NCBI GenBank assembly: GCA_949292105.1
Contig: CASEYK010000038.1
Span: 1 to 36,236 of the forward strand
Source: an uncultured bacterium
Lineage (GTDB): Bacteria > Bacillota_I > Bacilli_A > RFN20 > CAG-826
Direction of reading: 5' to 3'
Length of the DNA: 36,236 nucleotides
This document shows positions 7,032 through 36,236 of the stretch, piece after piece. Each line of letters begins with the position of its first letter. The first letter of the stretch is position 1. The position numbers and the translations under genes were made by a program. The notes under the pieces were generated by a model. It was not told the origin of the DNA, did no database searches, and worked only from the letters and a program-made list of their open reading frames with translations.

Positions 7032-7042
7032 ATACTGAGGAA

Positions 7043-7048
7043 ATTATA
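7043..7048 (-). promoter_or_regulatory. -10 box of the endonuclease operon
   Basis: A perfect TATAAT on the minus strand, 11 bases before the endonuclease ATG. No good -35 box is visible at the usual distance. The predicted start point leaves a leader of only about 4-5 bases. Confidence 0.5.
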
Positions 7049-7077
7049 ACAAAACACTTTAATAATTGGTAGAAAGC

Positions 7078-7083
7078 TATAAT
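7078..7083 (+). promoter_or_regulatory. -10 box of the C5 methyltransferase gene
   Basis: A perfect TATAAT on the plus strand with only a weak -35 match upstream. It would give a leader of about 80 bases before the ATG at 7173, in contrast to the near-leaderless endonuclease message on the other strand. The two promoters lie back to back in the 141-base divergent region. Confidence 0.45.
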
Positions 7084-7172
7084 GAAATACATTTAATAAA
7101 TTATCTAAAGAATTTATTGAAACTTTATTTTTGTTCTTGATCGTTCACCAACTGTGTAGTAAACTTAAGAAT

Positions 7173-8426
7173 ATGAAAAAAACTGTTGTCGAACTATTCG
7201 CTGGTGTCGGTGGATTCCGAGTTGGATTAAACAATATAACTAGAATTGACGAAAACGGAAAGGCAATCGAAAATGGCCCTTGGAAGTTCGTATGGGCTAA
7301 TCAATGGGAGCCATCAACAAAAGCGCAACACGCATTTGACTGCTATAATATTAGATTTCCATCTGCGGTTGAAAACTCTAATGTGGATATCTCCAAAGTA
7401 GATAAAAAAACTATTCCTAATCATACTTTGCTCTGCGGTGGGTTTCCTTGCCAAGACTATTCTGTTGCTCATTCCCTAAGCAGTTCACATGGAATTGAGG
7501 GCAAAAAAGGTGTTTTATGGTGGCAAATTAATGATGTTTTGGCAGTTAAAAAACCCCCGTTTGTTCTTTTGGAAAACGTTGATAGATTGATTAAGTCACC
7601 AGCCAAACAGCGCGGAAGAGATTTCGGTATTATGCTCCACTGTTTTGCTAAACAGGGTTATGCCCTAGAATGGAGAGTAATTAACGCTGCAGATTATGGT
7701 CATCCTCAAAGAAGACGCAGGATATTCATTTTTGCTTTTCATAAAAGTACCAACTATTACAAATCACTCATTAAAATTTCTGCCGTCAAAATTATTTCAA
7801 AAGAAGGCTTGTTTGCTAAAGAATTCCCAGTTGAAAATATTTCAGAAAAAAATATAAGGCAAATCAATTTAATTAATGGTTTTAAAGATTTAGTTGATAT
7901 ATCTGAAAATTTCCGTGCTTCATTCGGAAATACTGGTTGTGTGGTTGGCAACAAAGTATATACAGCAAATACAAAACCAATTAAAACGAAACCTATGGTT
8001 TTGAATGATATAATTGAGAAACGCCAAGTTGACAAGCATTATTTTCTAAGCGAATCACAAAAGAAACAATACGAATATCTTCGTGGTTCCAAAAAAATTC
8101 TTAGAAAAGATAAAAATGGTTTTGAATATATGTATTCTGAGGGATCAATGTCGGCATATGATGATTTATTGCTTCCAGCAAGAACAATGTTGACATCTGA
8201 AAGTACAACCAATAGAAGTACACACATAATTAAAGATCCAAAAACCAAAAAACTCAGGGTTTTAACACCAATTGAATGTGAAAGAATTAATCAATTTCCT
8301 GATAATTGGACTAATTCAGGAATGCCAGAAAACAGACGATATTTTATGATGGGAAACGCATTGGTGTGTGGCATCATTTCTAAAATCGGCAAACAAATTG
8401 AAAAAATAGTAGAAAAAGAAAAATAG
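7173..8426 (+). CDS. DNA (cytosine-5)-methyltransferase, M.Sau3AI-like
   Basis: A 417-residue C5-cytosine methyltransferase, which moves a methyl group from S-adenosylmethionine to cytosine in its target. Motif I is VELFAGVGGFRVG (residues 6-18), motif IV is GGFPCQDYS with catalytic C93, motif VI is LLENVDR, motif VIII is the DYGHPQRRRR block, and motif X is MMGNALV near the end. The variable region with a target-recognition domain lies between VIII and IX. I chose ATG 7173 because residues before it are not family-like and the frame otherwise opens with a TTG at 7131. Length is close to M.Sau3AI (about 412). It is divergent from the endonuclease and should protect GATC sites, by family inference. 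Confidence 0.92.
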   Translation: MKKTVVELFAGVGGFRVGLNNITRIDENGKAIENGPWKFVWANQWEPSTKAQHAFDCYNIRFPSAVENSNVDISKVDKKTIPNHTLLCGGFPCQDYSVAHSLSSSHGIEGKKGVLWWQINDVLAVKKPPFVLLENVDRLIKSPAKQRGRDFGIMLHCFAKQGYALEWRVINAADYGHPQRRRRIFIFAFHKSTNYYKSLIKISAVKIISKEGLFAKEFPVENISEKNIRQINLINGFKDLVDISENFRASFGNTGCVVGNKVYTANTKPIKTKPMVLNDIIEKRQVDKHYFLSESQKKQYEYLRGSKKILRKDKNGFEYMYSEGSMSAYDDLLLPARTMLTSESTTNRSTHIIKDPKTKKLRVLTPIECERINQFPDNWTNSGMPENRRYFMMGNALVCGIISKIGKQIEKIVEKEK

Positions 8427-10598: not shown

Positions 10599-12698
10599 TT
10601 ATAAAGAAGTAGAAACACCTTCTATCGTTTTTATTATTTCATCACAAAGATCAATGATATAGTCGGGAATCTGCTTTACTCCTAAAACAGTATATAAATA
10701 TAAATTTTCAACGTGATAATTTTCTGTAATAAAATTTCTCAACTTTATATCCACAGGAACAGTATTTTTTTCTAAAATTGGTCTGATTAGGCGAATTTTT
10801 TCATAGTTGTCATTTGAATGTTTATACAAAGTAATTAAATCATTCAAGGAATTGTTAGATATGAAAACATTATAATCAAAACCAGGAATCTCATTTCTAA
10901 TTTCATTTATTCCAGCGCTTATCGCAGAACTATCCAAAGGTTTGCCATTTATTTTAATTGGTGTTGCTCGTAAATGCTCAGCATTTGATAAGATATGATA
11001 AATAGGTTTACTATGTTGAGTTCCGAGTAGGTCGTAATATCTTCTTAAATGAATTATCTTTAAATAGTCAATTGAATTATTTTGTACCTGCTTATACTCA
11101 GCGGTAATTACATTTTGAATATCATCTTTTTTTATTTCTTTTTCGGATACTTCGCCTTTATTATTAATCAAAAGATGAGCCTTTTTAGGAATTTTTATAA
11201 AATCGTTTTTAATAATGTCTAAAAGCGGTTCCATATCATGAGTTAAAAGAATCACAGTTTTATCTTTTAAAACACCATTTGTTTCATTAAACAAATAGTG
11301 AATTACAGCAAATTTTTTGTTTTCATCAAACGAAGAAATAGGATCATCAAGAATAACCAAATCCGTTTTCTTTCTCTTAGCAATTGCTCCAAATAAAGCA
11401 AGACTTAATACGTTCATTTCTCCATATGAGAGATGTTGTGTTGCATCTTCAAGAATTATAGTTTTATTTAATAATGGCTTTAACATTGTTTGAGAATCAC
11501 CGTTTTCGTCAACATCAATATTGAACACATATGGAATACCTGCATATTTTAAAAATGTATTAATCTCATTTTCTGTATTGTTGATTGAATCTTTAATTAA
11601 GTAATTAAACTCCTTCATTAAGTCATAAAAATCATCAAATTCCTTTATCAATTTATCTATGGAATTATTTACTTTGACTGCGTTTTCTTTTAGTTCCTTT
11701 TCCAATCCATCAAAATATGTTAAATCTAATTTATTATTAACATAGTATTTTTTGATATCTTCCTTAGTATATCTATTTCTAAAAGAAAATCTAGTTTGAT
11801 GTATCAAAGATTCGATTTTATTTTTCTCAACTTCTGCTTTGTAGAATGTTTTCGCTAACAATTCCTGTTGTTCATCAGAAAGTGGGTCCTAAACAGTATT
11901 TATAGATTCAATTATTGTTTTTGTACCACTATCGGTAACAGTAGATAAATCAATGATAATTTGTTTGGCGGTATTATTCTTTTTAAAATCATTTTCTTTA
12001 ATAATAGAAGCTATTTTATTTTTAATATCATCAAAGTGTTCAGGTAATTTTTGAGCACAATAAGGACATCTGTCGTCTAATGCAAAGTTTACGCCATTAT
12101 TAAACCAAGAAAACCAATCAGGAGATTTAGGATTATTAATCCATAAAGAATACTCTTTTAGCTCAGATTTAGAGATCTTTTCGGCATAAGCTGGACCATT
12201 TTTAAATCCTTTTCCAACAGTACTTGAACCGCTTATAGTCTTTTTATCTTTATTAAATTTTAGTTGCCCACTAATTTTGTTAATTTTTTCAACAAATAAA
12301 TTTAAAGAAGGTGAACTAGCATTCTTAGATAGATTTAGTAAAGCACTATTAATCTCTTCTTCTTTTTTGACTAATGAGTCATCGTTAAAGAAAATAGAAT
12401 ACGATTCATTAATAACATTATTGTCACCTTGAAAAAGCCATTTGCTAATATAATCTCTATTAAAAGACATGCAAGAGTTGAATGTGCTAGATATAGAGAT
12501 TGCAGGATTTCCACCATTAAAAGGGGCGAGTTTATCTATTTCTTCATTAAGTTTGTTGATGCTAAAGTCTATAGCTTTTCCAATAGAACTTTTTCCTAAT
12601 CCGTTATATCCATATTTAATGTTGATAGATTTTTCCTCAATAACAATTTCTGCTTTTTTAACAGATTGAACATTTTCTATTTTTATATTTGTACTCAT
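10599..12698 (-). pseudogene. PrrC/RloC-like AAA ATPase gene interrupted by an in-frame TAG
   Basis: One long reading frame of about 699 codons, interrupted only by a TAG codon at 11889-11891; both sides are in the same frame. The N-terminal part has GYNGLGKSS (Walker A) and CPYCAQKLP, a zinc-hook-like pair. The C-terminal part has the ABC signature LSYGEMNVLSLA, Walker B LVILDDPISSFD, and RPILE with a later H in NYHVENLY, which recalls the R-x3-E...H anticodon-nuclease triad of PrrC/RloC, though the spacing differs. The start at 12698 has a fine ribosome site (GGAGGAAAAAG). Without the TAG this would be an intact AAA_13-type effector ATPase. It is a recent nonsense pseudogene, or less likely a readthrough gene; other genes here use TAG as a true stop. 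Confidence 0.75.
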
Positions 12699-12783
12699 CT
12701 TTTTCCTCCACATTCACCTTTGAACTCAAATCACTACGATTATTTAGGCTCAAAATTTTAACTGTTTTCTTCTCCATCCATTA

Positions 12784-13186: not shown

Positions 13187-13225
13187 TTACTTTTTGATAG
13201 CTAAAGCAACGACAGTCTCAACATG
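13187..13225 (-). pseudogene. Displaced 3' end of an rlmD-like gene (possible attachment-site scar)
   Basis: On the minus strand this encodes HVETVVALAIKK and a TAA stop. The intact rlmD at the right edge ends HVETIVGLALKK, 9 of 12 residues identical, with codon differences mostly at third positions. The E in HVET is the catalytic base of that family, so the motif is specific. The same frame stays open upstream to the DUF2971 stop codon at 13298 (residues HEHEHLRVSR precede the motif), in DNA that is visibly richer in G and C than its surroundings. This looks like the old gene end pushed away by an insertion. The match is short, so certainty is moderate. Confidence 0.5.
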
Positions 13226-13297
13226 CCTTGACACGCGCAGGTGCTCATGTTCGTGCATATAGGCGTGACCGTAGAGGCTATCGTGGAACCATGTTTT

Positions 13298-14332
13298 CTA
13301 TATAATTTTGCTGTATGTGATTCGCTTCTTTCCATTAGGTGGATTCATCTTGAATAAACTAAATCCTTTTTCTCTGGCTAGTTTTTTCATCTTGCTCTCA
13401 TTTGATTTTTTAACTTTGAATCCAAGATATACTGCCTTGATATTTAAATAAGGGAATCTGCCTCCTGCATTGGCAATTAGTCTCCATTCTGCTTGATATG
13501 ACCAATCAGTATCTTTTGTGCAGAATAGTTCCATAGATGCACCGATGTTGCCAGTTAAATGACCATCTGTTACGGCTCGCATAAATGCACCCATAGCGTA
13601 TTCAATCATCTTCTCGATAAATCTATTATTGTTCCTTTTTGTATAAATAACAGGACAAAGATTGGGAGTAACCTCTTGTCTTTTTGGAATATCATACTCA
13701 ATACAGTATCCCTCGTAATTATTTCCATACAAGGACCACATAGCTTTGTTATCTCTCTTTTCTGATAACGAGCATATGCCTACTCTATCACCAGGAGACA
13801 TAGCGCTCTTTGCAAATCCATCTAGTTTTGCACTCTCAATTACACCTTCAAAATTTTCATTAAATGTATTGAGTACCACAAACAACGGTTCAACCTCTGT
13901 TCTAGTCATGATACCGTTTGATGTAACCACCTTAGGCACTTTTTCATAATCTATGCCATCTTCTTTTATGCATTGAAGGGCTAATTTTTTTACTTCCTTA
14001 GGAGATAAGTTTTGAATGCCTTTCGGGTAAACCAACTTAATAATGAAATCAACTGCTTTTGGAGTAATTTTATGAGTCTTTTCGTTATAGAAATCATTAA
14101 TTGTGAAATCATTAAGGCAATCAAAAGGATCATCGAGACCTTTAACCGGAGCTAAATATGCATACCCCTCTTCAATCATTTCAAAAGCGTATCTATCAAA
14201 CGGTCTATATTTATATAGGATAATAGGAGTCTTTTTGAGAAAATCTTTCCTTGTTTCAAATTCAGACATGAAAGGAGTTGATTGAAAAACCAACAAATCT
14301 GTCATGTATTTACGTTTTTCTTTATTGTTCAT
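13298..14332 (-). CDS. DUF2971 domain protein, last gene of the helicase-McrC operon
   Basis: A 344-residue protein of the DUF2971 family. The hallmarks are LYKYRPFD (about residues 39-46), the LDDPFD box that follows a short helix, GICSLSEKRDNKAMWSLYGNNYEG, then CIEYD. Family members occur in abortive-infection and other defence loci, but no reaction is established that I can state with confidence. It begins 2 bases after the macro-McrC stop (TAG GT ATG), so translation is probably coupled. No signal peptide or membrane segment is visible. Its place at the end of the operon fits an effector or accessory factor, which is inference. The conserved polar residues suggest an enzyme rather than a structural protein. 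Confidence 0.85.
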   Translation of the reverse strand: MNNKEKRKYMTDLLVFQSTPFMSEFETRKDFLKKTPIILYKYRPFDRYAFEMIEEGYAYLAPVKGLDDPFDCLNDFTINDFYNEKTHKITPKAVDFIIKLVYPKGIQNLSPKEVKKLALQCIKEDGIDYEKVPKVVTSNGIMTRTEVEPLFVVLNTFNENFEGVIESAKLDGFAKSAMSPGDRVGICSLSEKRDNKAMWSLYGNNYEGYCIEYDIPKRQEVTPNLCPVIYTKRNNNRFIEKMIEYAMGAFMRAVTDGHLTGNIGASMELFCTKDTDWSYQAEWRLIANAGGRFPYLNIKAVYLGFKVKKSNESKMKKLAREKGFSLFKMNPPNGKKRITYSKII

Positions 14333-14334
14333 AC

Positions 14335-15270
14335 CTATTCAAATATTTTAAGCAAGGTACTAGTGAGCATTTCTTTGGTTTTGTCTATGTCCTCTTCAAA
14401 AACAAAAGGAACTCTAACTAAAACAACATCCACAAATTTTATATCGTCAAGTGATGAATTTCCTGTAAGTATCAATTCTTGAAAAATCGGCATATCGCTT
14501 TCAACATCTTCATATCTTAATAATGGGTAAATAATATAGGCCTTTTTTAGATTCCTTTTAGCCGCAAATGTAGATACTTGATATAAATCTTGCTGAGTGA
14601 CACCGCGAATGAGTTGCATCTTCCAAAGAGTTTCGTCTTCTTTTGCGTCCTCAAATCTTTGTATTTTTTTGTATTTTGTATCCATCAAGAATACTTTGTC
14701 TTCGATTGTGCATAATATATCGTGTCGCATCATGAATGCAGGACCATATGATTTTCCGGCATATCTAATGTCATTAATAAGGGGTTGATCACTTTTTTGT
14801 AGTTCAACTCTTCCTTTCCCGTCCAAAATCGATTTAAGGAACCCACCAATAAAGCCCTCAAAAAGCAAAGGCATAGGAAATAAGAAGCAGAACGATTCTT
14901 TTGTGTCCATCGTGTATCCAGGCAAATCATTGAGTAAAAAGATTTTACAAAGAGACAAAATGCTACGATATTCACTTTGCATTCTATTTAGAGTTACCTT
15001 ATCGCAGTCTCTAGCAATACAAACAACATCAGAAACATCGGACATTCTAAGAATAACGTTTCTAGCTTTTAAGCCATATCCTCTAGTGATAACTGAACAG
15101 CCAACATCACAATGACCGATTTGATTAAGCTCAGCCAAAATAGTCTTGCCTGCTTTAGCAATAATCTTCTTTCCGATGAGGCCACCTAAATGCAAATTAG
15201 TGTTTGCAGTACACACAATGGCGTCTACATCTCTATTGGTTATGTCAGCTTTAACAATATATAGGCTCAT
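14335..15270 (-). CDS. Half macro domain fused to McrC-like PD-(D/E)XK nuclease
   Basis: A 311-residue fusion. Residues 1-72 match the first half of a macro domain (ADP-ribose binding): VKADITNRDVDAIV, TANTNLHLGG in place of the usual NAANxxLxGGGG, and GYGLKARNVI. The rest of the macro fold is absent. From about residue 80 the chain follows McrC of McrBC: LNRMQSEYRSILSLC, LFPMPLLFEGF (130-140), then MRHDI (D184) and LMDTKYK (D197, K199) as the nuclease active site, and QQDLYQVSTFA. McrC normally works with the GTPase McrB, which is not in this window; here the partners appear to be two helicases. Start and stop lie 2 bases from both neighbours (TAA AT ATG; TAG GT ATG). Confidence 0.8.
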   Translation of the reverse strand: MSLYIVKADITNRDVDAIVCTANTNLHLGGLIGKKIIAKAGKTILAELNQIGHCDVGCSVITRGYGLKARNVILRMSDVSDVVCIARDCDKVTLNRMQSEYRSILSLCKIFLLNDLPGYTMDTKESFCFLFPMPLLFEGFIGGFLKSILDGKGRVELQKSDQPLINDIRYAGKSYGPAFMMRHDILCTIEDKVFLMDTKYKKIQRFEDAKEDETLWKMQLIRGVTQQDLYQVSTFAAKRNLKKAYIIYPLLRYEDVESDMPIFQELILTGNSSLDDIKFVDVVLVRVPFVFEEDIDKTKEMLTSTLLKIFE

Positions 15271-15272
15271 AT

Positions 15273-17156
15273 TTATTCACCATCTTCGGCTCCAAAAAAC
15301 ATGAAAAACGCACCAGTTCCAAACATAGGAAGTTTGCTTTCGTATTTTTCCATTGTCTGTTTACACTCATCAAAGGAAGCGTTAAATATCAATCCGAGTT
15401 CGAATTTTGCTCTAGAAGCGCCAACATATAAAAGCAATCTATTAGCGTCATCTAAAAGAATATCTTTATCAATATCGATAACAATTACTACTTCTGCTTC
15501 AAGCCCTTTAAATTTTCTACAAGTTGTAAATTTACACGGATAACCGTCAATAACTATTTTTTCGTTTCTAACCATTTCGGATAATGATGAGCTATTGGCT
15601 TCTCTTGTTGTTAACACAACAATGTCTTTATAATTCATCTTCCTATAAGTGTTCACCAATTTTTTCAATGACTCATAGTTATTTTCAACATCAACGCAAA
15701 AAGCCTTAACTTCATTACCATTTTCAAATCCTTTAATATATTCTCTTTTATATTCCGATTCTCTAAACAATGTACATGATGATTTAGCGATTTTTGTTGT
15801 GTTTCTACAATTTCTGAAAAGAGTTAATTTGCAATCGGCGCTAGATATCACTTCTGGCACTTCTTTAGATTGAACGCATTGGTATTTATCATAAAAGTAA
15901 TAACAATATCCTTTGTTCTCTTCTGCTATAAGTTGAAGATTTAACAAGAACCCAGACGCTTCTATTTCTTTTTTCCCGAAGTCTTGAGCTTCATCAATAA
16001 TGAAATTTACATAATCAAAGTTCTTGTCTTCAGTCATTTTTGAAACAAGTAAATTGTAATTTTTGTCGTCAATCGTTCCTAAATAATGGTGATAAAGCGA
16101 ATCAATTGTCTCAAATCTAATGAGTGGATACGTTTGGCTATAACTATCTAAATGCTCTTTCAATTTATTGTTATAACAGAGAAACAGCACTTTTTCTCCA
16201 GCATCATTTATTCTAATGGCCTTTTCTAAAGCTATCATTGTTTTGCCCGTACCTGCACCACCAGCTATGACAGCGATTTTTTGATCTTCCAAATAATTCA
16301 ATATTGCTTTTTGGTCCTCTAAAAAAGATGAAAGTCTTCCGTTCTTTAAATCGATAAAAAATCTTTCACTCGGTATAAGATTGCAAGCAGGAGCAATAAC
16401 AAGCTTTATAAAGTTTTCACAATCTAACTTTGATAGTTTTTTGAACGGCTCAACTGTCCTAACAGGAGTTTCATATCCGCATTCAGGGCATTTATAAACT
16501 CCGTCGTGACATTTGCATTTCGGATTTGGACATTTAAATAAGTAGTCTCTTCTAATCTTGTTGTTGTATTCAACGTCGATTTGGTATTGAACCGCAGATA
16601 AAATCTCGTCTTTCAATTTTTCTGGATGATCATAAATATGATATTTTCCTAAAATATATCTTTTGTTACCTGCGTCAGTAGGCAAAATCCAATTATTGAT
16701 TTTGTTCTGATCGATTGACGGAAAACAAACCAAACTGAGAAATGACATTTTAGAACCAAAACCAAATTTTGAAGCCCTTCCTTCGTTTAAGAATTTGCTT
16801 AAATTCCTGCGCGAACGATCTAGCTGTCTGAATGGTCCATTATATTTCATTACGGTTCCATCACCATAAGTCCACAAATAGTTGGTTGGCCTGCCTTGGT
16901 AAGTTAAGCTTTCTCCGGTCTTTATATCGACAGCGCCCGCTTTTGCTTCAAGACAAATTGCGGCAACATCAGGAATAAGAATTAAGAAGTCAATTTCAGC
17001 TTCATAGGATTGATTTTTACCATCAACATCTTTTATTTTTACTGAATGGCAAACGTACCAATCTTCAGGAAGATATTTATGCAAAACATCAAAAATATCA
17101 TCTTCTTTACTGCTTTTGTCGTAATCTAAGGCTCTGCCTGGAATCATTATTGCCAT
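15273..17156 (-). CDS. NERD nuclease-domain protein with UvrD/Rep-type helicase
   Basis: A 627-residue protein. Residues about 15-110 form a NERD domain with a nuclease-like core: EIDFLIL (D56) and ICLEAKAG (E70, K72). A zinc ribbon follows (CPNPKCKC ... CPECG, 208-225). The helicase part has Walker A GGAGTGKT at 298-305, FIIDEAQDF as motif II, a CRNTTK motif, KGLEAEVVIV as motif V, and YVGASRAK as motif VI, a superfamily I layout. It should move on DNA and may cut it. A ribosome site AAGGAG lies inside the end of the helicase gene, with 2 bases between stop and ATG. Placed between the DUF1998 helicase and the McrC fusion, it adds a second motor to the operon. Confidence 0.9.
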   Translation of the reverse strand: MAIMIPGRALDYDKSSKEDDIFDVLHKYLPEDWYVCHSVKIKDVDGKNQSYEAEIDFLILIPDVAAICLEAKAGAVDIKTGESLTYQGRPTNYLWTYGDGTVMKYNGPFRQLDRSRRNLSKFLNEGRASKFGFGSKMSFLSLVCFPSIDQNKINNWILPTDAGNKRYILGKYHIYDHPEKLKDEILSAVQYQIDVEYNNKIRRDYLFKCPNPKCKCHDGVYKCPECGYETPVRTVEPFKKLSKLDCENFIKLVIAPACNLIPSERFFIDLKNGRLSSFLEDQKAILNYLEDQKIAVIAGGAGTGKTMIALEKAIRINDAGEKVLFLCYNNKLKEHLDSYSQTYPLIRFETIDSLYHHYLGTIDDKNYNLLVSKMTEDKNFDYVNFIIDEAQDFGKKEIEASGFLLNLQLIAEENKGYCYYFYDKYQCVQSKEVPEVISSADCKLTLFRNCRNTTKIAKSSCTLFRESEYKREYIKGFENGNEVKAFCVDVENNYESLKKLVNTYRKMNYKDIVVLTTREANSSSLSEMVRNEKIVIDGYPCKFTTCRKFKGLEAEVVIVIDIDKDILLDDANRLLLYVGASRAKFELGLIFNASFDECKQTMEKYESKLPMFGTGAFFMFFGAEDGE

Positions 17157-17158
17157 AA

Positions 17159-20100
17159 CTATTTCTCCTTCACTGCGTAAACATCAGAATCGGTTAGCTC
17201 ATCGTTGCCCACAAGGAATTTAACATCTAACGGCAAATCAATGCTTTCAAGTTCGGTTTCTGCACCTGCTTCAAAAATATAAACTCCTTCATTTGGCCAA
17301 TAAACTATTGCGCGTTTTTTAAGCGCTTTCCCATTAATTTCAACTTCTCCAAACATCTTCTTTGGTAATGTGAGGGAAGATATTATCTTTTCAGCACTTG
17401 CTGTAAAAAGTCCTTTTGCAGTTTTGAAGAATGAGTCCCAATTCGTAAATGGGAAATTGCTTTCATTTTTCAACGTAATCTTGGTAGAGATATGTTTCTT
17501 GGGAATTGCATCAATATAAGGTTGTAAGAAATTGATTACAAGTTCTCTGCTTAAAATATCATGATATTTTTGGTTATCATAAGTCCTTAAACATTTATAA
17601 CAAGAAGATTTTGGATCACATGTGCAGTTCAAAGATTTTAAATAAGCAGCGTTTATTACTTCAGCTAAATTCATGAAGTCGTTATCTAATAATTGTTTAA
17701 CGTGACCTGCGCCTCCAGGAACATTATCAAATAGGATAAATCTGTAATTCATGGTCCCGCCAAGAAGATCGTCTCGTTTAATAACGCCTGATATTTCGTT
17801 CCTTTCAATGTGGAGTTCGTTCGAAATTGCGTCAATTAAAGCAAACAATACAGAAGTCGCTGTTGCATCATCGATGCTCTGAGCGTTGTTAAAGATTATT
17901 TGAACAATGTCTGTATTAAAAGCATGGTATAAAGTCTTTTTCTCAAGCGTGAGACAATTACATGGTTTACCATTTGGTCTATTATGCCCTTTTTGAACTG
18001 TTAAATCCTTTTTTGTGCCAGCTTGAAGAATTCCTGTTGCAACTTTGTCAAGTTTGCCATTTTTGTCCCTGATTTTATCATATCTTCCATATGCAAAACC
18101 GCATTTTGGACAAACATAGAACGGTTCTCCTTTAGCAGATGTAACAATGATTTTATCTTTTCTGGATGAAATAACAGTTATCTGAGAATGATTAAAATCA
18201 AGAACTGTTTTGTTGGCTGAGTGGTCTTCTTCTATATAATAGAAATCGGATCTATATACTTTTTTCGGTCTTGATAACGGAACTTCTTCAGGCTTGTTGC
18301 CATCTGTTATCATGCCAGCAGATGGGCTTATTGCTTCTTCCCAGACAACACCATTAAGAGAAACACCACAACCTTCGCATTTTTTATTTGTTGGGGTATT
18401 GGTATATGAGACGTTTAGTGTGCCACATCCACTGCAATATGAGACATATAATTTATCAAAATCCTTTTCTCCATTTTTCCAGTATTTAGAAATGTAACGT
18501 GCAGTGTACATTTTGTTATCTGCAATAACTTTAGAACCAGGAGCATAGTCACTAATTGCTTGAGTCATGTCTCTATTTAATCTCAAACCTCTATTGCTAT
18601 TGCTAGAATCATAGAGATGCTCTCCGCCAATTTTTAATTCTACGGTATCAACAGGGAATCCATACTTAGGAAGAATGTTACCTTCAACTAAGAAATCAAT
18701 GATTGAAGTTCCCTTGTATCTTTCCAAATCCTTTTCTTTATAACCGGAAATAAGTTTCCAATCTTTTCCCTGTGCAACTTCAATTGCTTTAATGTCATTA
18801 AGATAATCTTGAACGACTGAATTATATTCTTTGACTGCGGATGTTAGACGACCATTTGTTCCGATTAATTCAGAAACCCATTCACCAGAATAATCAGATA
18901 TACCAAATTCAGAATCCAAATCAGTAAAAGAGCAATGCAGCACATTTGCTAAATTCTGATCCTTATTCTTTAACATCTCTGTGAATTCATCTAATCCACC
19001 ATTTTCAATGAAATAGGAAATTGGTCTTTGCTTGCCTTCGTCATCTTCAAAATATGCTTCATATTTATTAAAGAAGTATCCAAAGCAAGTAGAGAATATA
19101 TGTCTATAAACAATTTTTGGATTATCTAACTTAAAGAATGGAGGCGTGATCTCACCATTAATCATTTCTTGTGGTTTTTCATAAAAATTGAAATCATGTG
19201 ATGAAAGTTTTGCAAATGATAACACAAAAGCAGCAGAATCTTTACTTCTGCCTGCACGACCGGCTCTCTGAGCATAATTGGCTGTGCTTGGTGGAATATC
19301 TCTTAAAAATACGGTTTCAAGTTCACCGACATCAACACCCATTTCAAATGTTGTTGAGCAGGACAATGCATTTATATTATTCTTTTCAAACTGGTTTTGG
19401 TAAGCCGATGCATCATGCTTACTTAATTGTGCTGTATGCTCCCTAACAAGCATTTTTTTAAGATACCTATCTTCACCGTATTTGAAAAATTTCAAATAGT
19501 GATTGTTTTTTAAATAATCTTGAACATTAGATAATTCTTCCAAATCGCCAGAACACTTTGTGACTAAACATTTATTTTTAAAGCCAATCGTTGTTATCTT
19601 CCCACACTTTTTGCATCGATACCATTTAACATTCTTATGTTCTGGAATCTTAATCGTAATAGACGATGTTGGGAGAGCATACCATGGATTAGAACCATCA
19701 ATACTTATTGCATGATAAGGGTTGGAAGAATTAATTAAGTAATCAAAATATTCTCCTAGGAATTTATTTGCTTCTTTTGTTTTTGTTTTATCATCAAATG
19801 CTTTCAAAGCAAGTTCTTGACGATAAGTTTTGTAATATTTATTTGGATCGCTTTCTCTAGCCATTGGCAACCAGTTTCCAATGTTAGGAAGCGAAAAACC
19901 GCTCTTACTTTTTTGAATGCCTTTTTGGTCTTTAACGAAAAACACTTCTTTTCTTGTTTCGAGTTTTAGATCGTAATTGTCGGTAATAATTGCTCCAAAA
20001 TAGGCAAAAGTCATCGCCAACTCATCGAGCAACTCTTTTACATCAAAATTACTTAATGAAGGAAAGTAAACCTGTTTAAAATAGCTAACAATCTTATCGT

Positions 20101-22519
20101 TGTTTCCAAGATATTCATATTTCAAAAACCCAAGAGATTGTAAACTACTGGAATATTTGCATGAAACTAACTCTTTTAAAATAACAAGCCAGGCATTTTC
20201 TTCACATAACGCTTTATGTTCCGCTGGTTTTGGATTCTTCAATAAGTCATCAATGAAAGTAAGATTTTTATGGAATAATTTGGCCAATTTATCAGCAAAG
20301 ATATTCAGATTCCACATTTCATCAAAGTAGTCCTCATCCATAAGGGCCTTTTTGTTTTTTTCTAATAATTCAACAAAAAGTCTTTTTGCCATCATGTTCT
20401 GATAAGTTCTATCCAAATAACTTGAAAAATATGCAGCTTCAGCTCTGGAATCAGAGAAGGCTAGGAACTGTTTTCCGGCCATTTTAACTATTTTTTCATT
20501 AGGGAGACCGGGCAGAGGCGATTCAACTTCCACCGTTACCGGCTTAATAGGGAGCTCCTCAAATAATGCGGTAGCCAAAACACCCGTAGCAGCTTCTGTA
20601 CCAATATAGAATTTATTATATTCACCGTTGAAACAATAAAGGCAGCGACTCTTTGAATGAATCACCTTTTTCGAATAAGATCTTATGTGCATCAAATCAG
20701 ATTTTGGATGTTTACAAGTTGGATATCCATCAGCTATTAACGATATTTCTCCACAATGTGGACACAAATAATAGTCATCTACATCTTTTGACTCGGTTAT
20801 GTCCGCTTGTTTGATGTGAGCCAACTCTTCTTCGTCGTCAATATCAGCTTCCTTTTCTTCGGCTTCTTGGAAATCAACTTCACCTTCATCAGGATCATCG
20901 TTATCAATTTTCGTTTTAACAATATGGAAAAACATTGGTTCTTCATCTTCAACTCTGTCATGAAGTGTAGAATCTCTATTTTTCAAATAAGTGGTTCCGT
21001 TTTCATCTTGAATATACCCAACAATGGCAATATCACCACAATGTTTGCAAATAGAAATCTCGAATACTCTATCTTCGATATTTCCTTTTTGAATATATTC
21101 TTTTCTCTCGAGGAACGCTGCTTTATTTCCTGTAAAGCAGCAATAAAATCCTTCTAATGTTCTGACAAAAAAGTGAAATCTAAGATCAACCAAAACAGAA
21201 TTCTTATTTCTGCAAAGAGAGCAAACATGCAAGAAAGCAACAGTTTGATCTTCTGTGAGTTCAAGCCAATCAGCAATTGTTTGTATAACAACTGGCTCAA
21301 CAAAAAGCATTCTTAAAGTCTTGTACATTGAACAGCACGAACAAACATTAAACAAATTCTCTTTATATTCGAGTTTATCATCGTAATCTAAATTATATTT
21401 TTGGAATAATGGCTTGTAATCCTCAGTTTCATTTGAAGCACATTCTTCAAAGAAGCCTATTGGTACATTTAAAGTTTGATTACCCATGAAAAATGGTTCT
21501 CGATGGCCAAATACGATTGTATCAGTGCCAAACGCTTCTCCTGTTAAGTTCTCAGCAAAATCGCTAATATCTTTCTCGGCTTTTCCTTCTTCACCAAGTG
21601 TCGCACTTGTCAAAATGTACTGAGGATGTGATTTTTCTTGGTTGATTCTCGCAATAAGTCTTCTAATAAGCAGAGATGTCTCCATTCCTGTTGCCCCTGA
21701 ATAAGAATGGGCTTCATCCAAAACAATAAATTTTACGTTTGATCCAGCAAAAACAGCTCCTCTATTAGGTGTAAGAAGCATATATTCTAGCATCGCATAG
21801 TTTGTACATAGAATATGAGGTGGATTCTTAACCATTTCTTCTCTGGTTAAAGGTTCATTAGGCAAAGGCCATCTTAATTTCTCAACGGCTTCATTTTCGT
21901 GCAATTCGTTATACCATTTTCTTCTATCACCACTGTATGGAGTGTCACCATTAAAAACACCAAATCTTATTTCTGGATATTCCATCAAAAGATTTCTGAG
22001 CCTTTTCATTTGGTCATTAGCTAAAGCGTTCATTGGATAAATAAGAATCGCTCTAACTCCCGGCTTTGAAAGGGTGCCTTCTTCTTTTTCTCTTAAAAGA
22101 GAATTAATTAGTGGATACAAGAAGCATTCCGTTTTTCCTGAACCAGTTCCGGACGTAACAACGATATTGCGCTTGCTATTTAATAACCTGATTGCTCTTT
22201 CTTGATGAAGATAAAGAGGCCTGTCTGGCACTATGCTTCTTTTGTATTTCAACTCATTGGGTTTGTTTTTTTCAATTTCTGTAAATAAAGGCGATAATAC
22301 ACCCTCTTTTATTAAATCGTTAATCGTGCATCCTTTAACAAAATTGGTATTTATATCAACGTATGGACCCTTGCAAATTGTTTTTTCAAGTTCTTTTCTG
22401 AATTGTTTACCAAAATTTACTACATCTTGGTCGCCATCAATTGGGAAGTTCAATGCAGTAGTAATATAATCAATGAATTCTTCTTTAATTTTCTTTGAAC
22501 TTTTCGCAGGATTAAACAT
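17159..22519 (-). CDS. Giant DEAH helicase with C-terminal DUF1998 (Druantia DruE/YprA-like)
   Basis: A 1786-residue superfamily 2 helicase. Motif I GTGSGKT is at 124-130, Ia is YPMNALANDQ, Ic is CTNYAMLEY, motif II DEAH at 268-271, motif III TSATLG, motif IV AFSDSRAEA, and motifs V-VI run FEMGVDVG to QRAGRAGR. Many cysteine pairs (CSCC, CKHCG, CPHCG, CKKCG, CSGCG, CEGCG) imply inserted zinc ribbons. The C-terminal region FDNVPGGAGHV ... SCYKCLRTYDNQKYHDILSREL is the DUF1998/MrfB zinc domain. This architecture and great length resemble DruE of Druantia and relatives of YprA/MrfA and DISARM helicases. The ribosome site GAGGAG precedes ATG 22519, 11 bases after the 955-residue gene. It is the likely motor of the system. 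Confidence 0.92.
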   Translation of the reverse strand: MFNPAKSSKKIKEEFIDYITTALNFPIDGDQDVVNFGKQFRKELEKTICKGPYVDINTNFVKGCTINDLIKEGVLSPLFTEIEKNKPNELKYKRSIVPDRPLYLHQERAIRLLNSKRNIVVTSGTGSGKTECFLYPLINSLLREKEEGTLSKPGVRAILIYPMNALANDQMKRLRNLLMEYPEIRFGVFNGDTPYSGDRRKWYNELHENEAVEKLRWPLPNEPLTREEMVKNPPHILCTNYAMLEYMLLTPNRGAVFAGSNVKFIVLDEAHSYSGATGMETSLLIRRLIARINQEKSHPQYILTSATLGEEGKAEKDISDFAENLTGEAFGTDTIVFGHREPFFMGNQTLNVPIGFFEECASNETEDYKPLFQKYNLDYDDKLEYKENLFNVCSCCSMYKTLRMLFVEPVVIQTIADWLELTEDQTVAFLHVCSLCRNKNSVLVDLRFHFFVRTLEGFYCCFTGNKAAFLERKEYIQKGNIEDRVFEISICKHCGDIAIVGYIQDENGTTYLKNRDSTLHDRVEDEEPMFFHIVKTKIDNDDPDEGEVDFQEAEEKEADIDDEEELAHIKQADITESKDVDDYYLCPHCGEISLIADGYPTCKHPKSDLMHIRSYSKKVIHSKSRCLYCFNGEYNKFYIGTEAATGVLATALFEELPIKPVTVEVESPLPGLPNEKIVKMAGKQFLAFSDSRAEAAYFSSYLDRTYQNMMAKRLFVELLEKNKKALMDEDYFDEMWNLNIFADKLAKLFHKNLTFIDDLLKNPKPAEHKALCEENAWLVILKELVSCKYSSSLQSLGFLKYEYLGNNDKIVSYFKQVYFPSLSNFDVKELLDELAMTFAYFGAIITDNYDLKLETRKEVFFVKDQKGIQKSKSGFSLPNIGNWLPMARESDPNKYYKTYRQELALKAFDDKTKTKEANKFLGEYFDYLINSSNPYHAISIDGSNPWYALPTSSITIKIPEHKNVKWYRCKKCGKITTIGFKNKCLVTKCSGDLEELSNVQDYLKNNHYLKFFKYGEDRYLKKMLVREHTAQLSKHDASAYQNQFEKNNINALSCSTTFEMGVDVGELETVFLRDIPPSTANYAQRAGRAGRSKDSAAFVLSFAKLSSHDFNFYEKPQEMINGEITPPFFKLDNPKIVYRHIFSTCFGYFFNKYEAYFEDDEGKQRPISYFIENGGLDEFTEMLKNKDQNLANVLHCSFTDLDSEFGISDYSGEWVSELIGTNGRLTSAVKEYNSVVQDYLNDIKAIEVAQGKDWKLISGYKEKDLERYKGTSIIDFLVEGNILPKYGFPVDTVELKIGGEHLYDSSNSNRGLRLNRDMTQAISDYAPGSKVIADNKMYTARYISKYWKNGEKDFDKLYVSYCSGCGTLNVSYTNTPTNKKCEGCGVSLNGVVWEEAISPSAGMITDGNKPEEVPLSRPKKVYRSDFYYIEEDHSANKTVLDFNHSQITVISSRKDKIIVTSAKGEPFYVCPKCGFAYGRYDKIRDKNGKLDKVATGILQAGTKKDLTVQKGHNRPNGKPCNCLTLEKKTLYHAFNTDIVQIIFNNAQSIDDATATSVLFALIDAISNELHIERNEISGVIKRDDLLGGTMNYRFILFDNVPGGAGHVKQLLDNDFMNLAEVINAAYLKSLNCTCDPKSSCYKCLRTYDNQKYHDILSRELVINFLQPYIDAIPKKHISTKITLKNESNFPFTNWDSFFKTAKGLFTASAEKIISSLTLPKKMFGEVEINGKALKKRAIVYWPNEGVYIFEAGAETELESIDLPLDVKFLVGNDELTDSDVYAVKEK

Positions 22520-22530
22520 ATCTATCTCCT

Positions 22531-25398
22531 CTATTTTTTATAGTAAATGGTTTTAAATTCAGAAACTGAATTAGAAGCAGGATTTGTCGTAAAGCAATTT
22601 TTGGATGTGTCAAAATTTGCTTTTTTGGTTATCTCATCCTCTTTACCATAAACAAACAAAAGGTTTTTGATAAGTCTTCCATCTTTATGTGTAAATCTAA
22701 CTTTTTGAGGACGTGACATTTTAGATTTAAGCATTCCATTGAATACACAATCACCTATGTTGTCATAGCCAAAATATGAAATTGTATCAATAAAGTATCC
22801 ATCCATTTTTAGCTTTGCTTGCGTTTTAAAGTCTCTGGCTGGTCTTAAGCCAATCCTATCGATATCGGCAAACGCCTTTTTGTTAATGTCGCCAAGAACA
22901 ACATCAAACGATGGAAGAGATACTTCCGCTTCTTCTTCACCAATATAGACTTTTGCAAACGAAATATGAGCTTTGTATTCGCCATCATCTATGCTTGTGT
23001 TTTCAAAAATATTTTCTTCATCGATGGTTTGCAATTTCCATTTGATCTTTTTTCCTTTTGAATCCTTTAATGTTAAGTAAACATTATAGTTTGCGTTATC
23101 ATGGATAAAATATTCTCTAATATCGATTTTTAATGTTTTGTCATCAAGTGAAAGACAATCGCCCAAATCAATTGTTTCAGAACCATATGGCCTATCAGTA
23201 ATAGCAAAGAGCGGTATTTCTGTGTTAAAGCACTTACAGAAAAAATATCCTTTTTTATTTCCGGCACTAATAAATTGTGACAGCAAATATGTATTTTCTT
23301 CAGAACCAGAAAACACTTCGATAGGTTTAGATGCTAATGTTGGCTGAAAATATAATTTATCAATGCTCAGGGCAGTATTAATTAATATTGTTTCATTAGT
23401 TGACTCAAATTCGCTGATAATAATTGGCTTCTTAAGATTAATTTGTAAATAATGGATATCGTTAGACGTTGTTCCAAAATACCAATTGAAGAATGGGTTT
23501 TGAATGATGGCAGTAGCACCCAAATCTTCTAACTCAAATTCGCTTTCTTCGCTTGTTGAGCTAATTACATAATCAAACGGCATCCCGAATAATTTTAGCT
23601 TGCCACTGCAATCGCCTTTCAAATAAGGAAAACAGTCTCTTTGAATTTTAATCTCATCATCAATTATGTAATGTTTATCAAGCAAATTTTTGTTGCCTAA
23701 AACGCTTTTAGAAATTTTGGTAACGGTCAGTGAATGATAACCAACTCCAGATAAATTATGTTCAAGATTGTCAAAACAATACCTGTGGTTGACAAGTGGG
23801 AGCTCTGAAAGTCTCTTTTCATCATCAGACAAAATATTTCCAAAAGGATCTTTCAAGACATGATGAACTCTTATAAATTCAGCACTTGTTTCATCATCCT
23901 TGTTAATTAACAAACTGGAAAAAGACCTAAAAACTTCATACACTTCATCATTTTTATAAATCAATATGCCTTCCAAAGCGGATAAAGATTGGTCCTCAAA
24001 TTTAACATTTGATGGCATTCCTTGCTGTGAAAAAAGTATTGTTGAATCGCCATATTCAACAGAATCAAAATCTTCAGGTATAATGTTATAAATATTTTTC
24101 CAGAGTAATCGATACTCATTTCTTAGTAGATGGAGGTTTTTAGAAATATCGAATTCTTTTGGAACAACAAGATAATAGTTTCCAGGTTTGACGTTTCCAC
24201 GAATTTCTTTATCAGCGCCAAAGAGCAAGAAATCTCTGTAGAATTCTTTTTTGGAGTAATAACCATCTCCATTATTAGCAACAATTTGAAGTTCATAATG
24301 GTAATTCTTTTCTTCCGAATAATAAATGTCAGTTAGCTCCTCGGAAAATGCACTTAAGGTGTATGAGTGTTCACCATTATTTTTGATGTATCTACGAGAA
24401 AACTGCTTTACCAATGTTTTTTTGCCGTCTTCTTCTTCGCGGAAAAGATAGACATCAACATATTCACATTCGTTTTCGTTTCCTAAGAGAATCAATCGTG
24501 GGATTCTTATATGAATGGTCGGTTTTTCATGCTGAGCAAAATCTATATTTAAAACAGGACGTAATTGGCTAAATGTGTGTGCGGTATTAGAACCTCTGTA
24601 TGTTGAGCCTCCGCCACTTCCGGTCCTGACAATAACTCTTTTATTTTTAGCTACAACAGAACTGATAATACGGTTTATTGTATTTTCTTCAAGATCTTCG
24701 CTGCTTCTATCAACATTGTTGATTGATAAAAGTATATTATCTAAAAGTTTAATTGTCTTCTCTGTGTTTTGAACAACTCCATATTTGAAAGCTGTTCTAA
24801 GGCGATAATAAGTTGAACCAAATTGAACATCAGTATCTTCGTCAGGCGAAACAATTTTTTTCTTCAGTGAATTAATTACATATTCACAGAATATAATATC
24901 CGAAACAGGATAATCACATTCCAAATCATCAAAATACTTTCTCCAAGCTAAGTCGATAAAACTTTCCAATGAGAATCTTGGTGCAAGAGCATGGTATAAG
25001 AATGTTTGAGCAAAGGCACGCTTCCCGCCTTTTGTCTCAAACAAAACTCTATTGTATTTTTTAAAAAGTAGAGCGATAGCATCATAAAGTTTTATGAGAA
25101 ATTGACTTATTAAGATATAAACATAGTAGTCATCGTCAAATACTTGATTTATTTGATCCCAAAAGCCATTCTCGGACCATTCTTTATCCCAATCTCTTAG
25201 TTTGTTAACGACAACAATAACAAAATATGAAATTTCATCAAGGGTGTAGCCAAAAGAATTTGAGTTTCTTTTTGCCGCAGAAAGAAATTCCTCTTTTAAT
25301 TCTTCAATTTCTTCCTCATCAAAATGGAAATTGCCCAAAAGGTTAATGTCATCAGAAAACACGCGTTGAACTTTTTCAAATAATTCTTCATCAATCAT
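22531..25398 (-). CDS. 955-residue protein of unknown family, partner of the DUF1998 helicase
   Basis: I do not recognise the family. Residues 1 to about 250 look mainly helical and acidic (for example FDEEEIEELKEEFL). A glycine/serine-rich linker RTGSGGGSTYRGSN follows near residue 260. The remaining about 690 residues are strand-rich, with repeated alternation of hydrophobic and polar residues that suggests stacked beta-sandwich modules. No signal peptide, membrane helix, nucleotide-binding motif or nuclease motif was seen. The start has AGGAGG 8 bases upstream and overlaps the end of the Xre gene by 8 bases. Position and size, one long unknown protein just before a DUF1998 helicase, recall DruH of Druantia type III, but I saw no sequence proof. 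It may be a sensor or scaffold. Confidence 0.8.
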   Translation of the reverse strand: MIDEELFEKVQRVFSDDINLLGNFHFDEEEIEELKEEFLSAAKRNSNSFGYTLDEISYFVIVVVNKLRDWDKEWSENGFWDQINQVFDDDYYVYILISQFLIKLYDAIALLFKKYNRVLFETKGGKRAFAQTFLYHALAPRFSLESFIDLAWRKYFDDLECDYPVSDIIFCEYVINSLKKKIVSPDEDTDVQFGSTYYRLRTAFKYGVVQNTEKTIKLLDNILLSINNVDRSSEDLEENTINRIISSVVAKNKRVIVRTGSGGGSTYRGSNTAHTFSQLRPVLNIDFAQHEKPTIHIRIPRLILLGNENECEYVDVYLFREEEDGKKTLVKQFSRRYIKNNGEHSYTLSAFSEELTDIYYSEEKNYHYELQIVANNGDGYYSKKEFYRDFLLFGADKEIRGNVKPGNYYLVVPKEFDISKNLHLLRNEYRLLWKNIYNIIPEDFDSVEYGDSTILFSQQGMPSNVKFEDQSLSALEGILIYKNDEVYEVFRSFSSLLINKDDETSAEFIRVHHVLKDPFGNILSDDEKRLSELPLVNHRYCFDNLEHNLSGVGYHSLTVTKISKSVLGNKNLLDKHYIIDDEIKIQRDCFPYLKGDCSGKLKLFGMPFDYVISSTSEESEFELEDLGATAIIQNPFFNWYFGTTSNDIHYLQINLKKPIIISEFESTNETILINTALSIDKLYFQPTLASKPIEVFSGSEENTYLLSQFISAGNKKGYFFCKCFNTEIPLFAITDRPYGSETIDLGDCLSLDDKTLKIDIREYFIHDNANYNVYLTLKDSKGKKIKWKLQTIDEENIFENTSIDDGEYKAHISFAKVYIGEEEAEVSLPSFDVVLGDINKKAFADIDRIGLRPARDFKTQAKLKMDGYFIDTISYFGYDNIGDCVFNGMLKSKMSRPQKVRFTHKDGRLIKNLLFVYGKEDEITKKANFDTSKNCFTTNPASNSVSEFKTIYYKK

Positions 25399-25588
25399 TT
25401 ACGTTTCCTCCTACACTATTCTTTTCATACAGCCTCTTAAGTTTTCTTTTATATCTGTAAGTCGGCTGATGATGGCCGTTTTCCCATCTATTAACCGTTT
25501 CAAAAGAAACACCCAAAAGATCTGCTAATTCTTTTTGGCTGATCATTAACTTTTCTCTTAACTTTTTAGTGTCGTACGAAAAATCCAT
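25391..25588 (-). CDS. Small Xre-family HTH regulator, first gene of the operon
   Basis: A 65-residue Cro/CI-type DNA-binding protein: LREKLMISQKELADLLGVSFETVNRWENGHHQPT is a full helix-turn-helix, with a short basic tail. It overlaps the next gene by 8 bases, so the regulator is fused to the operon it probably controls. A palindrome (25648-25664) lies upstream of its -10 box and is a good candidate operator, implying self-repression. No strong ribosome site precedes the ATG. Such regulators commonly keep defence operons silent until needed. The role is inferred from position; the fold call is firm. Confidence 0.9.
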   Translation of the reverse strand: MDFSYDTKKLREKLMISQKELADLLGVSFETVNRWENGHHQPTYRYKRKLKRLYEKNSVGGNVND

Positions 25589-25630
25589 GATTACTTTAAA
25601 ATAAGTATATCAAGCATATGACACTTTTTC

Positions 25631-25664
25631 ATTATAACCTAGTTAACCGGACAAAATTCGTCCG
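25631..25664 (-). promoter_or_regulatory. Operon promoter (-10) with palindromic candidate operator
   Basis: On the minus strand TATAAT (25631-25636) lies about 42 bases before the Xre ATG. Upstream is CGGAC...GTCCG (25648-25664), arms of 5 bases around 7, overlapping the place of the -35 box, which is itself weak. This is where a small Xre repressor would block RNA polymerase. Confidence 0.5.
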
Positions 25665-25748
25665 CTTTAAAATACATCGTTTTTTCAAACGTTTTTCAAA
25701 TTTTTTGGCACTTTTTTCAATACTTCGTCAAAAGATGTTGCTACATAT

Positions 25749-27531: not shown

Positions 27532-27541
27532 AAATGCTCCT

Positions 27542-28696: not shown

Positions 28697-30430
28697 ATGG
28701 AAAGAGAAGTTCAAATTATAGCACCTAGACCAAAGCCTAAGTTTCTTTTCAATGGTTCAAAAATCCTTCCTACACAAAAACGAGTCGCTGCTTACTGTCG
28801 TGTATCGAGTGATAGAGACGAGCAGCTCAACAGCTTCGACAACCAGGTTGATGAATGGAAGAAAAGACTTGAGCAAGATCCAAGTGTTGTTTTGGTGGGT
28901 ATCTACGCTGACGAAGGTATCTCAGGTACATCTGAAGAAGGAAGATTAGAATTCCAAAGACTTATCAATGATGCCCGTGCGGGAAAGATAGATAAGATTG
29001 TTACTAAATCCATATCCAGGTTTGCTAGAAATATTCAAACATCAATTAACATCGCTAGAGAGTTAAAAGCCATCGGTGTTGAAATCTATTTTGATAATGA
29101 GCACATATCCACATTAGATCCTTCCAGTGAAGTCATGTTCACTATTAACGCTATTGTGGCTCAAGAGGAAGCTCGCCATATTTCAGAAAACGTTAAATGG
29201 ACTTTTAATAAAAACAAGAAAGAAGGCATACCTATGGTAAGCAGCAACCTTCTTGGTTATAGAAGGGATCCAGAAAACCCAAAGAACCTCATCATCATTC
29301 CTGAAGAAGCTCAAATAGTTAGAGAAATCTTTGAACTATACACCAAGGAGGTTGGCACCAATGAAATAGGCAGAATTCTTGAAAAGAAAGGCTATCTCAC
29401 TAGAAGAGGCAAGACCAAATGGTACAATTCCTCCATTGAAGGCGTTATCACCAACGAGAAATACTGTGGTGACTTAATCCTTCAAAAGAGTGTGACTGTC
29501 GATTTCCTAAGCCATAAAAGAATTAAAAACGATGGCATTGAAGAGAAAGTCTATATTAGAAACAATCATGAACCTATTGTAAGTAGAGAAGTCTGGGATA
29601 AAGCTCAGCTCATCTACGCCAAGAATAGAGATAGATTCAGAGGAGAAAACAAAGACAGCAGAAAATATGCATCTAAATATCCTTTAAGCGGTATGCTTGT
29701 TTGTCTTAACTGTGGCAACACCTATAAAAGAAGACATTGGACACAAGGCTATGCAGAGCCAAGAATTATGTTTCAATGCAATAACTTCATCAACGGCTAT
29801 GAATTTAATAAATGTCACTCGCAAGCAATAAGCGAAGATATTCTCCTTAAAGCAACAGCGGAAGTTATTAACCGTGTCTATTTAGAAAAGGGCAAAGCAT
29901 TGAGCACACTCATGAAAAATATTGAGTCTCAAATCAACGATGAAAGCACCGAAGACCAGGTTAACGAGCTAAAACGAAAACAAGAAACCATAGAAGATGA
30001 AATTGACGAGATTATTAAAAAGAAGCAGTTCGCTGACGAGCTTGAAAGAATTCTCTTAGAGAAACAATACAAAGAGCGTATTGTGGAATATCGCGATTTA
30101 GAAAACAAGATCAACGGACTTCTCAGCAAAAGCAAAGAAGTTGAACTAGCAAAGCATAGGTTGCTCAATATGGGTAAATCGTTAAATGGAGAAAAACTCA
30201 CAGGTCAAACGTTAACTAAACCAATTGTCCAAACTTGTATCGAGTCCATCATTGTCATTGACAAGCACAACATTGTGTTCGTTCTTCCCAACAACGAAAA
30301 AGCCAACTACGAACTTATAAAAGAAAGAAGAGAAAGCCTTGTACAACACACTCCTGTCTTAGAAGGAAACGTTACTTATCCAAGAAGGTTTAGACCAGAA
30401 CGCCTGCACTATAAAGTGGTGTTAATGTAA
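28697..30430 (+). CDS. Large serine recombinase (site-specific integrase)
   Basis: A 577-residue recombinase of the large serine type, which cuts and rejoins DNA through a serine-phosphate link. The resolvase domain starts AAYCRVSSDRDEQ with likely catalytic S37, followed by DEGISGTS and ITKSISRFARN. The Recombinase domain (LLGYRRDP ... GRILEKKGYLTRRG) comes next, then a zinc ribbon (CLNCG ... CNNF ... KCHS) and a coiled coil (about 415-490, NELKRKQETIEDEIDEI). A perfect AGGAGG site precedes ATG 28697. It probably moves an element in this region; its codon use looks richer in G and C than the defence genes to its left. Length and all domains are intact. Confidence 0.95.
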   Translation: MEREVQIIAPRPKPKFLFNGSKILPTQKRVAAYCRVSSDRDEQLNSFDNQVDEWKKRLEQDPSVVLVGIYADEGISGTSEEGRLEFQRLINDARAGKIDKIVTKSISRFARNIQTSINIARELKAIGVEIYFDNEHISTLDPSSEVMFTINAIVAQEEARHISENVKWTFNKNKKEGIPMVSSNLLGYRRDPENPKNLIIIPEEAQIVREIFELYTKEVGTNEIGRILEKKGYLTRRGKTKWYNSSIEGVITNEKYCGDLILQKSVTVDFLSHKRIKNDGIEEKVYIRNNHEPIVSREVWDKAQLIYAKNRDRFRGENKDSRKYASKYPLSGMLVCLNCGNTYKRRHWTQGYAEPRIMFQCNNFINGYEFNKCHSQAISEDILLKATAEVINRVYLEKGKALSTLMKNIESQINDESTEDQVNELKRKQETIEDEIDEIIKKKQFADELERILLEKQYKERIVEYRDLENKINGLLSKSKEVELAKHRLLNMGKSLNGEKLTGQTLTKPIVQTCIESIIVIDKHNIVFVLPNNEKANYELIKERRESLVQHTPVLEGNVTYPRRFRPERLHYKVVLM

Positions 30431-35701: not shown

Positions 35702-36236
35702 TTATTTCTTTAAGGCTAATCCCACAATGGTTTCAACGTGAAACGACCTAGGAAACATATCAACTGGTTGAACTGCTTGTATTTCGTAATCATTAATTAA
35801 GTATGCAAGGTCTCTTGCTAGAGTGGCGGGATCACAAGAAATATAGATAATCTTTTTTGGTTTATTTTTTAATAGTGAGAATAAAAATTCTTTGGTTGAT
35901 CCTTTTCTCGGAGGGTCAAGTATCACAACATCAAATTTATGATTTGTTTCAAATAAATACTTAGTACAATCTTCACAGACAGGTGTCATGTTCTTAATAT
36001 TGTTTAATTTGATGTTGTCTTTCATGTTATCCACCGCTTCTCTAACAACTTCAACTGAAGTCACATGCTTTGCATATTGACTAGCGATAGCACCGATGCT
36101 GCCAACGCCGGCATAGGCATCAAGCACTTCGTCTTCTTTTGAAAGCTGTGCCAATTCAAAAGCTTTAGAATAAAGAACTTCTGTCTGGCTTGGATGAACT
36201 TGAAAGAACGACTTAGATGATATATTGAATGTAACA
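35702..36236 (-). CDS. rlmD: 23S rRNA (uracil-C5)-methyltransferase RlmD/RumA family, 5' end outside window
   Basis: The C-terminal about 178 residues of a TrmA/RlmD-type enzyme, which methylates uracil C5 in RNA (U1939 of 23S rRNA for RlmD) using S-adenosylmethionine. Reading in from the right edge: SKSFFQVHPSQTEVLYSKAF, the SAM motif VLDAYAGVGSIG, then VVILDPPRKGS (motif IV), YISCDPATLARDLAYL with the catalytic cysteine, and FHVETIVGLALKK with the base E at the end. The gene continues beyond 36236. It is a chromosomal core gene and a known entry site for integrative elements in Firmicutes; here accessory DNA begins right after its stop. Confidence 0.92.
   Translation of the reverse strand, partial: VTFNISSKSFFQVHPSQTEVLYSKAFELAQLSKEDEVLDAYAGVGSIGAIASQYAKHVTSVEVVREAVDNMKDNIKLNNIKNMTPVCEDCTKYLFETNHKFDVVILDPPRKGSTKEFLFSLLKNKPKKIIYISCDPATLARDLAYLINDYEIQAVQPVDMFPRSFHVETIVGLALKK

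Follow-up and report, generated by a model that had tools for sequence, protein, structure and literature searches.

A macro-McrC hybrid gene in a mosaic defence island at rlmD is best explained as a recombination scar

The window analysed here, a stretch of 36,236 nt from the genome of an uncultured bacterium of the class Bacilli_A (contig CASEYK010000038.1), carries a defence island next to rlmD (rumA). Its features are listed in Table 1. Three large minus-strand genes, which we refer to as operon A, encode a protein of unknown family, a DruE-like helicase and a helicase with a NERD domain. They are followed by an ORF whose front half is derived from a macro-domain gene and whose back half is derived from mcrC, and then by a DUF2971 gene.

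Table 1. Features of the island, with positions in the window
Feature	Position	Strand	Remarks
rlmD (rumA)-like 3' tail, ...SRHVETVVALAIKK stop	13190..13291	-	Just after DUF2971
Block shared with the L002 McrBC cassette	13209..15064	-	1,856 bp, 98.9% identity; ends in rlmD-like tail
DUF2971 gene (PADLOC candidate PDC-S31)	13298..14332	-	Adjoins McrC in L002 and L003; same transferred block
Hybrid ORF, macro front half and McrC back half	14335..15270	-	311 aa
McrC part, residues 70-311	14335..15064	-	99% DNA identity to residues 224-465 of L002 McrC
Junction word TAGAAACGTTAT	15053..15064	-	12 bp, at most 14; same frame in both parents; RNVI
Macro part, residues 1-73	15053..15270	-	87% DNA identity to L004 macro gene over residues 1-69
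NERD and superfamily 1 helicase gene	15273..17156	-	Operon of macro parent
DruE-like helicase gene	17159..22519	-	1786 aa; operon of macro parent
955-aa protein, unknown family	22531..25398	-	First large gene of macro parent's operon
CcrB/CcrC-like large serine recombinase	28697..30430	+	73% identity to recombinase of L002 contig
Chromosomal rlmD, 3' part	35711..36235	-	Contig end; island site

Both the rlmD end at the edge of the contig and the rlmD-like tail downstream of the DUF2971 gene were matched by protein similarity alone. Similar tails follow DUF2971 in two other Bacilli genomes, L002 and L003, and the tail in the window is probably the attachment-site edge of a cassette. On the L002 contig, the order is rlmD, a recombinase with 73% identity to its counterpart in the window, and an McrBC cassette. 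The rumA (rlmD) gene is a known site of elements whose serine integrases exchange the 3' part of the gene (PMC4701971). The island resembles these elements in that it adjoins rlmD, encodes a large serine recombinase and has an rlmD-like 3' tail at the far cassette edge, but it differs from them in that no conjugation genes were found among the window ORFs scanned. The recombinase gene and rlmD together mark an SCC-like accessory site that is also used in L040, a locus on the same contig as L002. Two further defence genes in the island are broken. A PDC-S06-type (AAA_13-like) gene (10599-12713, minus strand) is interrupted near 11889 by an in-frame TAG, which leaves two ORFs that match positions 2-265 and 290-689 of one 693-position model, and a DpnII-type restriction endonuclease gene (26628-27681, minus strand) lies in two ORFs in different frames that match profile positions 1-178 and 201-277 of 278. 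The hybrid is thus not the only defence gene here that has decayed. At 5643-8426, a Sau3AI-type restriction endonuclease gene (minus strand) adjoins a C5 cytosine methyltransferase gene (plus strand).

The hybrid ORF begins with ATG and runs through 311 codons in a single frame without an internal stop. Pfam matches its front to Macro (E 1.3e-8, profile positions 1-88 of 118) and its back to McrBC (PF10117; E 1.8e-26, profile positions 151-318 of 318). Both matches are well above chance, and NCBIfam agrees on a macro front and an McrC back; the Macro match past residue ~74 is alignment run-on into McrC. An earlier, sequence-only reading of this DNA had described a macro-then-McrC chain in one ORF, and this description is confirmed by both profile collections, by the open frame and by the parent genes described below. 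The macro span, given there as residues 1-72, can be refined: macro sequence extends to residue 73, and the switch lies at residues 70-73 (RNVI), which are common to both parents. The same reading held the D...DxK nuclease site to be intact, as indeed it is, with D184, D197 and K199 invariant in an alignment of eight McrC-type sequences. We rejected the possibility that two ORFs had been joined by a frameshift or a wrong start, given one stop-free frame with DNA matches on both sides, and also that of a standard McrC N-terminus, given that residues 1-69 have 87% DNA identity to a macro gene and only background similarity to mcrC.

Scanning genome contigs with the whole 311-aa protein gave matches at three loci, none of which covers both halves. 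The only close match of residues 1-73 is an intact macro protein in L004, an uncultured Bacilli genome. That protein is complete, with 342 aa and the full macro domain (1-118 of 118), and its start shares 96% identity with these residues. Residues 70-311 match intact McrC proteins only, with 99% identity to the end of the complete 465-aa McrC of L002 and 94% to that of L003. All of these parents sit in draft genomes. The surroundings of each half correspond to those of its parent. The L004 macro gene comes after genes for a 955-aa protein, a DruE-like helicase and a NERD helicase, as in the window, and positions 15053-25671 are colinear with the L004 contig (blastn); at 76.6% identity, L004 is a stand-in for the operon-A parent, the true parent not being in hand. 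In L002, a methyltransferase gene and an AAA_5 (McrB-like) gene, the latter directly 5' of mcrC, precede mcrC, and a DUF2971 gene follows it as in the window. L003 has the same gene order and lengths as L002, and the two contigs are 80% identical across 7.8 kb of the McrBC cassette. Positions 13209-15064 of the window are colinear with L002 at 98.9% identity (blastn). Eight of the 21 differences in this block fall in its last 72 bp, past DUF2971, a clustering that fits a site-specific crossover near 13285.

These gene orders bear on the absence of McrB, which the sequence-only reading had linked to the helicases of the operon. No McrB homologue was found in the organism's own genome, which is 97% complete, with the L002 McrB as query, so the absence itself stands. 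The proposal that helicases serve in place of McrB is not supported, since the helicases belong to the operon upstream of the macro parent in L004, and in L002 and L003 an McrB-like gene lies immediately 5' of the McrC parent. The rest of the macro gene was likewise not found in the same 97%-complete genome.

The blastn alignments of L004 and L002 to the window overlap solely at positions 15053-15064. The sequence there, TAGAAACGTTAT, encodes Arg-Asn-Val-Ile in the same frame in both parent genes. In steps of 30 bp, identity to the macro gene drops from 0.93 in codons 61-70 to 0.47 in codons 71-80, and identity to mcrC rises over the same codons from 0.40 to 1.00. One synonymous mismatch between L004 and the window falls inside the word, so the length of the match between the real parents can be given only as 12-14 bp, with no more than one mismatch. 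The longest word common to two such genes by chance is typically 10-11 bp, and a 12-bp word is thus not rare in itself; it is the coincidence of the breakpoint with the shared word, rather than the rarity of the word, that points to recombination there. A repeat or RNA feature at the joint was rejected, as no long repeat crosses the joint and the window has neither an Rfam match nor a tRNA.

A single contig in a single draft genome (53 contigs) carries the junction, its parents also come from draft genomes, and each half has a nearest relative of its own, with identities that lie far apart. These properties would suit an assembly or read chimera, in which two strains or species carrying cassettes of the two kinds at the same site had been misjoined. 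However, the exact shared word of 12-14 bp is below assembler k-mers, since short-read assemblers normally join contigs with k-mers of 21 or more. In addition, the whole contig is free of N, and the other edge of the McrBC-derived block is a natural cassette edge, the rlmD-like tail, such that one unusual join suffices. Together, the short word, the lack of N and the natural edge favour a real junction, and we regard a chimera as unlikely.

We conclude that the ORF is most probably a recombination hybrid present in the organism. The sequence-only reading had named a recombination scar as one of two possibilities, and this is the one borne out by a complete gene elsewhere for each half, by a DNA switch within a shared word of 12-14 bp and by the lack of any other fusion in the genomes searched. 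We propose that illegitimate recombination at the 12-14 bp match joined two defence operons within one mosaic island at rlmD. The start of the hybrid would derive from operon A, comprising the 955-aa protein, the DruE-like helicase, the NERD helicase and a macro protein, and its end from an McrBC cassette, cassette B, comprising a methyltransferase, McrB, McrC and DUF2971. The cassettes would have been inserted in tandem at rlmD and the deletion would have come afterwards, an order of events that we infer; such a history is a natural one for the hybrid, given the rlmD site with its serine recombinase. The simplest event would be one deletion between the two operons, lying in tandem with a common orientation. 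The loss would comprise the back of the macro gene, the methyltransferase gene, mcrB and the front of mcrC, and by comparison with L004 and L002 would amount to at least about 5.8 kb. With the word in the same frame in both genes, the hybrid would have stayed open, with DUF2971 directly downstream and now behind operon A. The hybrid start codon is 2 bp past the NERD-helicase gene, like the macro start in L004, and DUF2971 starts 2 bp past the hybrid stop, like after mcrC in L002. These spacings, kept at both ends, leave DUF2971 as the last gene of operon A, behind which it would still be expressed. A genome with intact operon A and cassette B in tandem was not found. It also counts against a scar that a dead scar does not require an open frame, although a joining would give one by chance in one case out of three.

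A variant that is compatible with a scar is gene replacement, in which the end of cassette B was swapped into an A-type island by crossovers at the word and at the attachment-site tail. That the 98.9% identical block ends in the rlmD-like tail, with its differences from L002 concentrated there as if a second crossover had occurred near 13285, is in keeping with replacement. However, replacement needs two events at once, and the second edge is equally explained by an earlier site-specific integration of cassette B together with one deletion. We therefore prefer deletion, on economy alone, and consider replacement a tentative alternative with a modest chance of being right.

An alignment to TgMcrC (6UT5) places the joint at about TgMcrC residue 237-240. 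The published domain limits of TgMcrC are residues 1-98 (and 289-298) for the scaffold, 99-288 for the finger domain and 299-458 for the nuclease (PMC7680126), and the finger is the part of McrC that enters the McrB ring. The hybrid thus resembles TgMcrC and E. coli McrC in residues 70-311, which comprise the tail of the finger domain and the PD-(D/E)xK nuclease, but unlike the McrC of McrBC type IV restriction it has neither the N-terminal part of the scaffold nor most of the finger. Residues 1-223 of the parental McrC, and with them the N-terminal DUF2357/finger domain that contacts McrB, are missing. An intact McrBC system also has a gene for the McrB GTPase alongside, whereas none was found in the genome of the hybrid. 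In the same way, residues 1-73 correspond to the first part of a macro domain (PF01661; MacroD-type), but beyond residue 73 there is no true similarity to the parent, and the fold is incomplete: the RNVI strand is the last macro element kept, and the second half of the fold, including the conserved HTVGP and FPLIS..G..YP stretches, is absent. With half of the macro fold and most of the McrB-binding finger missing, the hybrid protein is expected to have no activity or, at most, to act as a nuclease without targeting. Structure prediction of the N-terminus, which the sequence-only reading had suggested as a check, decides little: in the AlphaFold2 model, confidence is low over residues 1-130 (block means 33-67) and rises over the nuclease, and the shallow alignment makes the model weak evidence. 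Foldseek searches with this shallow-alignment model hit McrC as well as macro structures, though at low whole-chain TM-scores; the intact McrC was modelled with a mean pLDDT of 69.7. The low confidence of the hybrid model is consistent with a loss of fold.

The other possibility raised by the sequence-only reading was a true new architecture, in which a trimmed macro fold replaces the N-terminal region of McrC; in the form considered here, the nuclease would also be coupled to the helicases of the DruE-like and NERD genes. The open frame, the kept nuclease residues and the position right behind the helicase genes are what such a protein would show. We searched for homologues with the same junction, and a second macro-McrC fusion was absent among 193 relatives, 395 class genomes and 224 family genomes (overlapping samples), every other match in these samples being one-sided, with an end near the joint. 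In plasmids, no match spanned 80% of the hybrid protein; phages had none, and in viral contigs neither the protein nor the junction DNA gave one. An origin of the fusion in a phage or plasmid was rejected for want of a full-length match. A literature search for a macro domain-McrC fusion found no paper in the collection searched, and a census of McrBC systems makes no mention of macro domains (PMC11090510). The lack of the fusion in any other searched genome disfavours a new architecture, as do the macro half that ends at the RNVI strand, the presence of the operon A core without a macro or McrC gene in two genomes (G184 and G230) and, as weak evidence, the low model confidence over residues 1-130. 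Taken together, a new architecture is very improbable. We give slightly less credence still to the idea that the hybrid is expressed as a minimal, McrB-independent nuclease recruited by the operon A helicases through its macro stub, a fusion caught at birth; were the fusion functional, it would offer a rare view of a new defence protein forming.

Hybrid genes from illegitimate recombination are of a well-known kind. The present case provides an example of shuffling at rlmD, with a Druantia-like operon and an McrBC cassette as partners, and it illustrates that a single crossover in a defence island can yield a convincing two-domain "new architecture". Comparison of each half with its intact parent is what settles architecture versus scar.

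Operon A resembles DruE-centred Druantia systems in carrying a DruE-like helicase (PADLOC DruE1, E 3.5e-170; DruE3, E 6.5e-163). It differs from them in that the 955-aa partner fits no Druantia model and a NERD helicase comes after. The 955-aa protein has no Pfam, NCBIfam or PADLOC match, and no cognate Druantia partner such as DruH was found in the operon. The hybrid ORF does not belong to the core of this Druantia-like operon, and a macro gene as conserved core was rejected, since G184 and G230 carry the core without one. A three-gene unit of a 900-1100-aa protein of unknown family, a DruE-like helicase and a NERD helicase is present in the window (15273-25398, minus strand) and in two other class members, L047 (6793-16248) and L048 (7830-18119), both without macro or McrC genes. 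This unit is possibly a Druantia-like variant with a NERD helicase; tblastn did not show homology of the first gene across the three units. The DUF2971 gene lies 2 bp after mcrC in the intact McrBC cassettes of both L002 (10732-11766) and L003 (10732-11766), and may be an accessory gene of the McrBC system.
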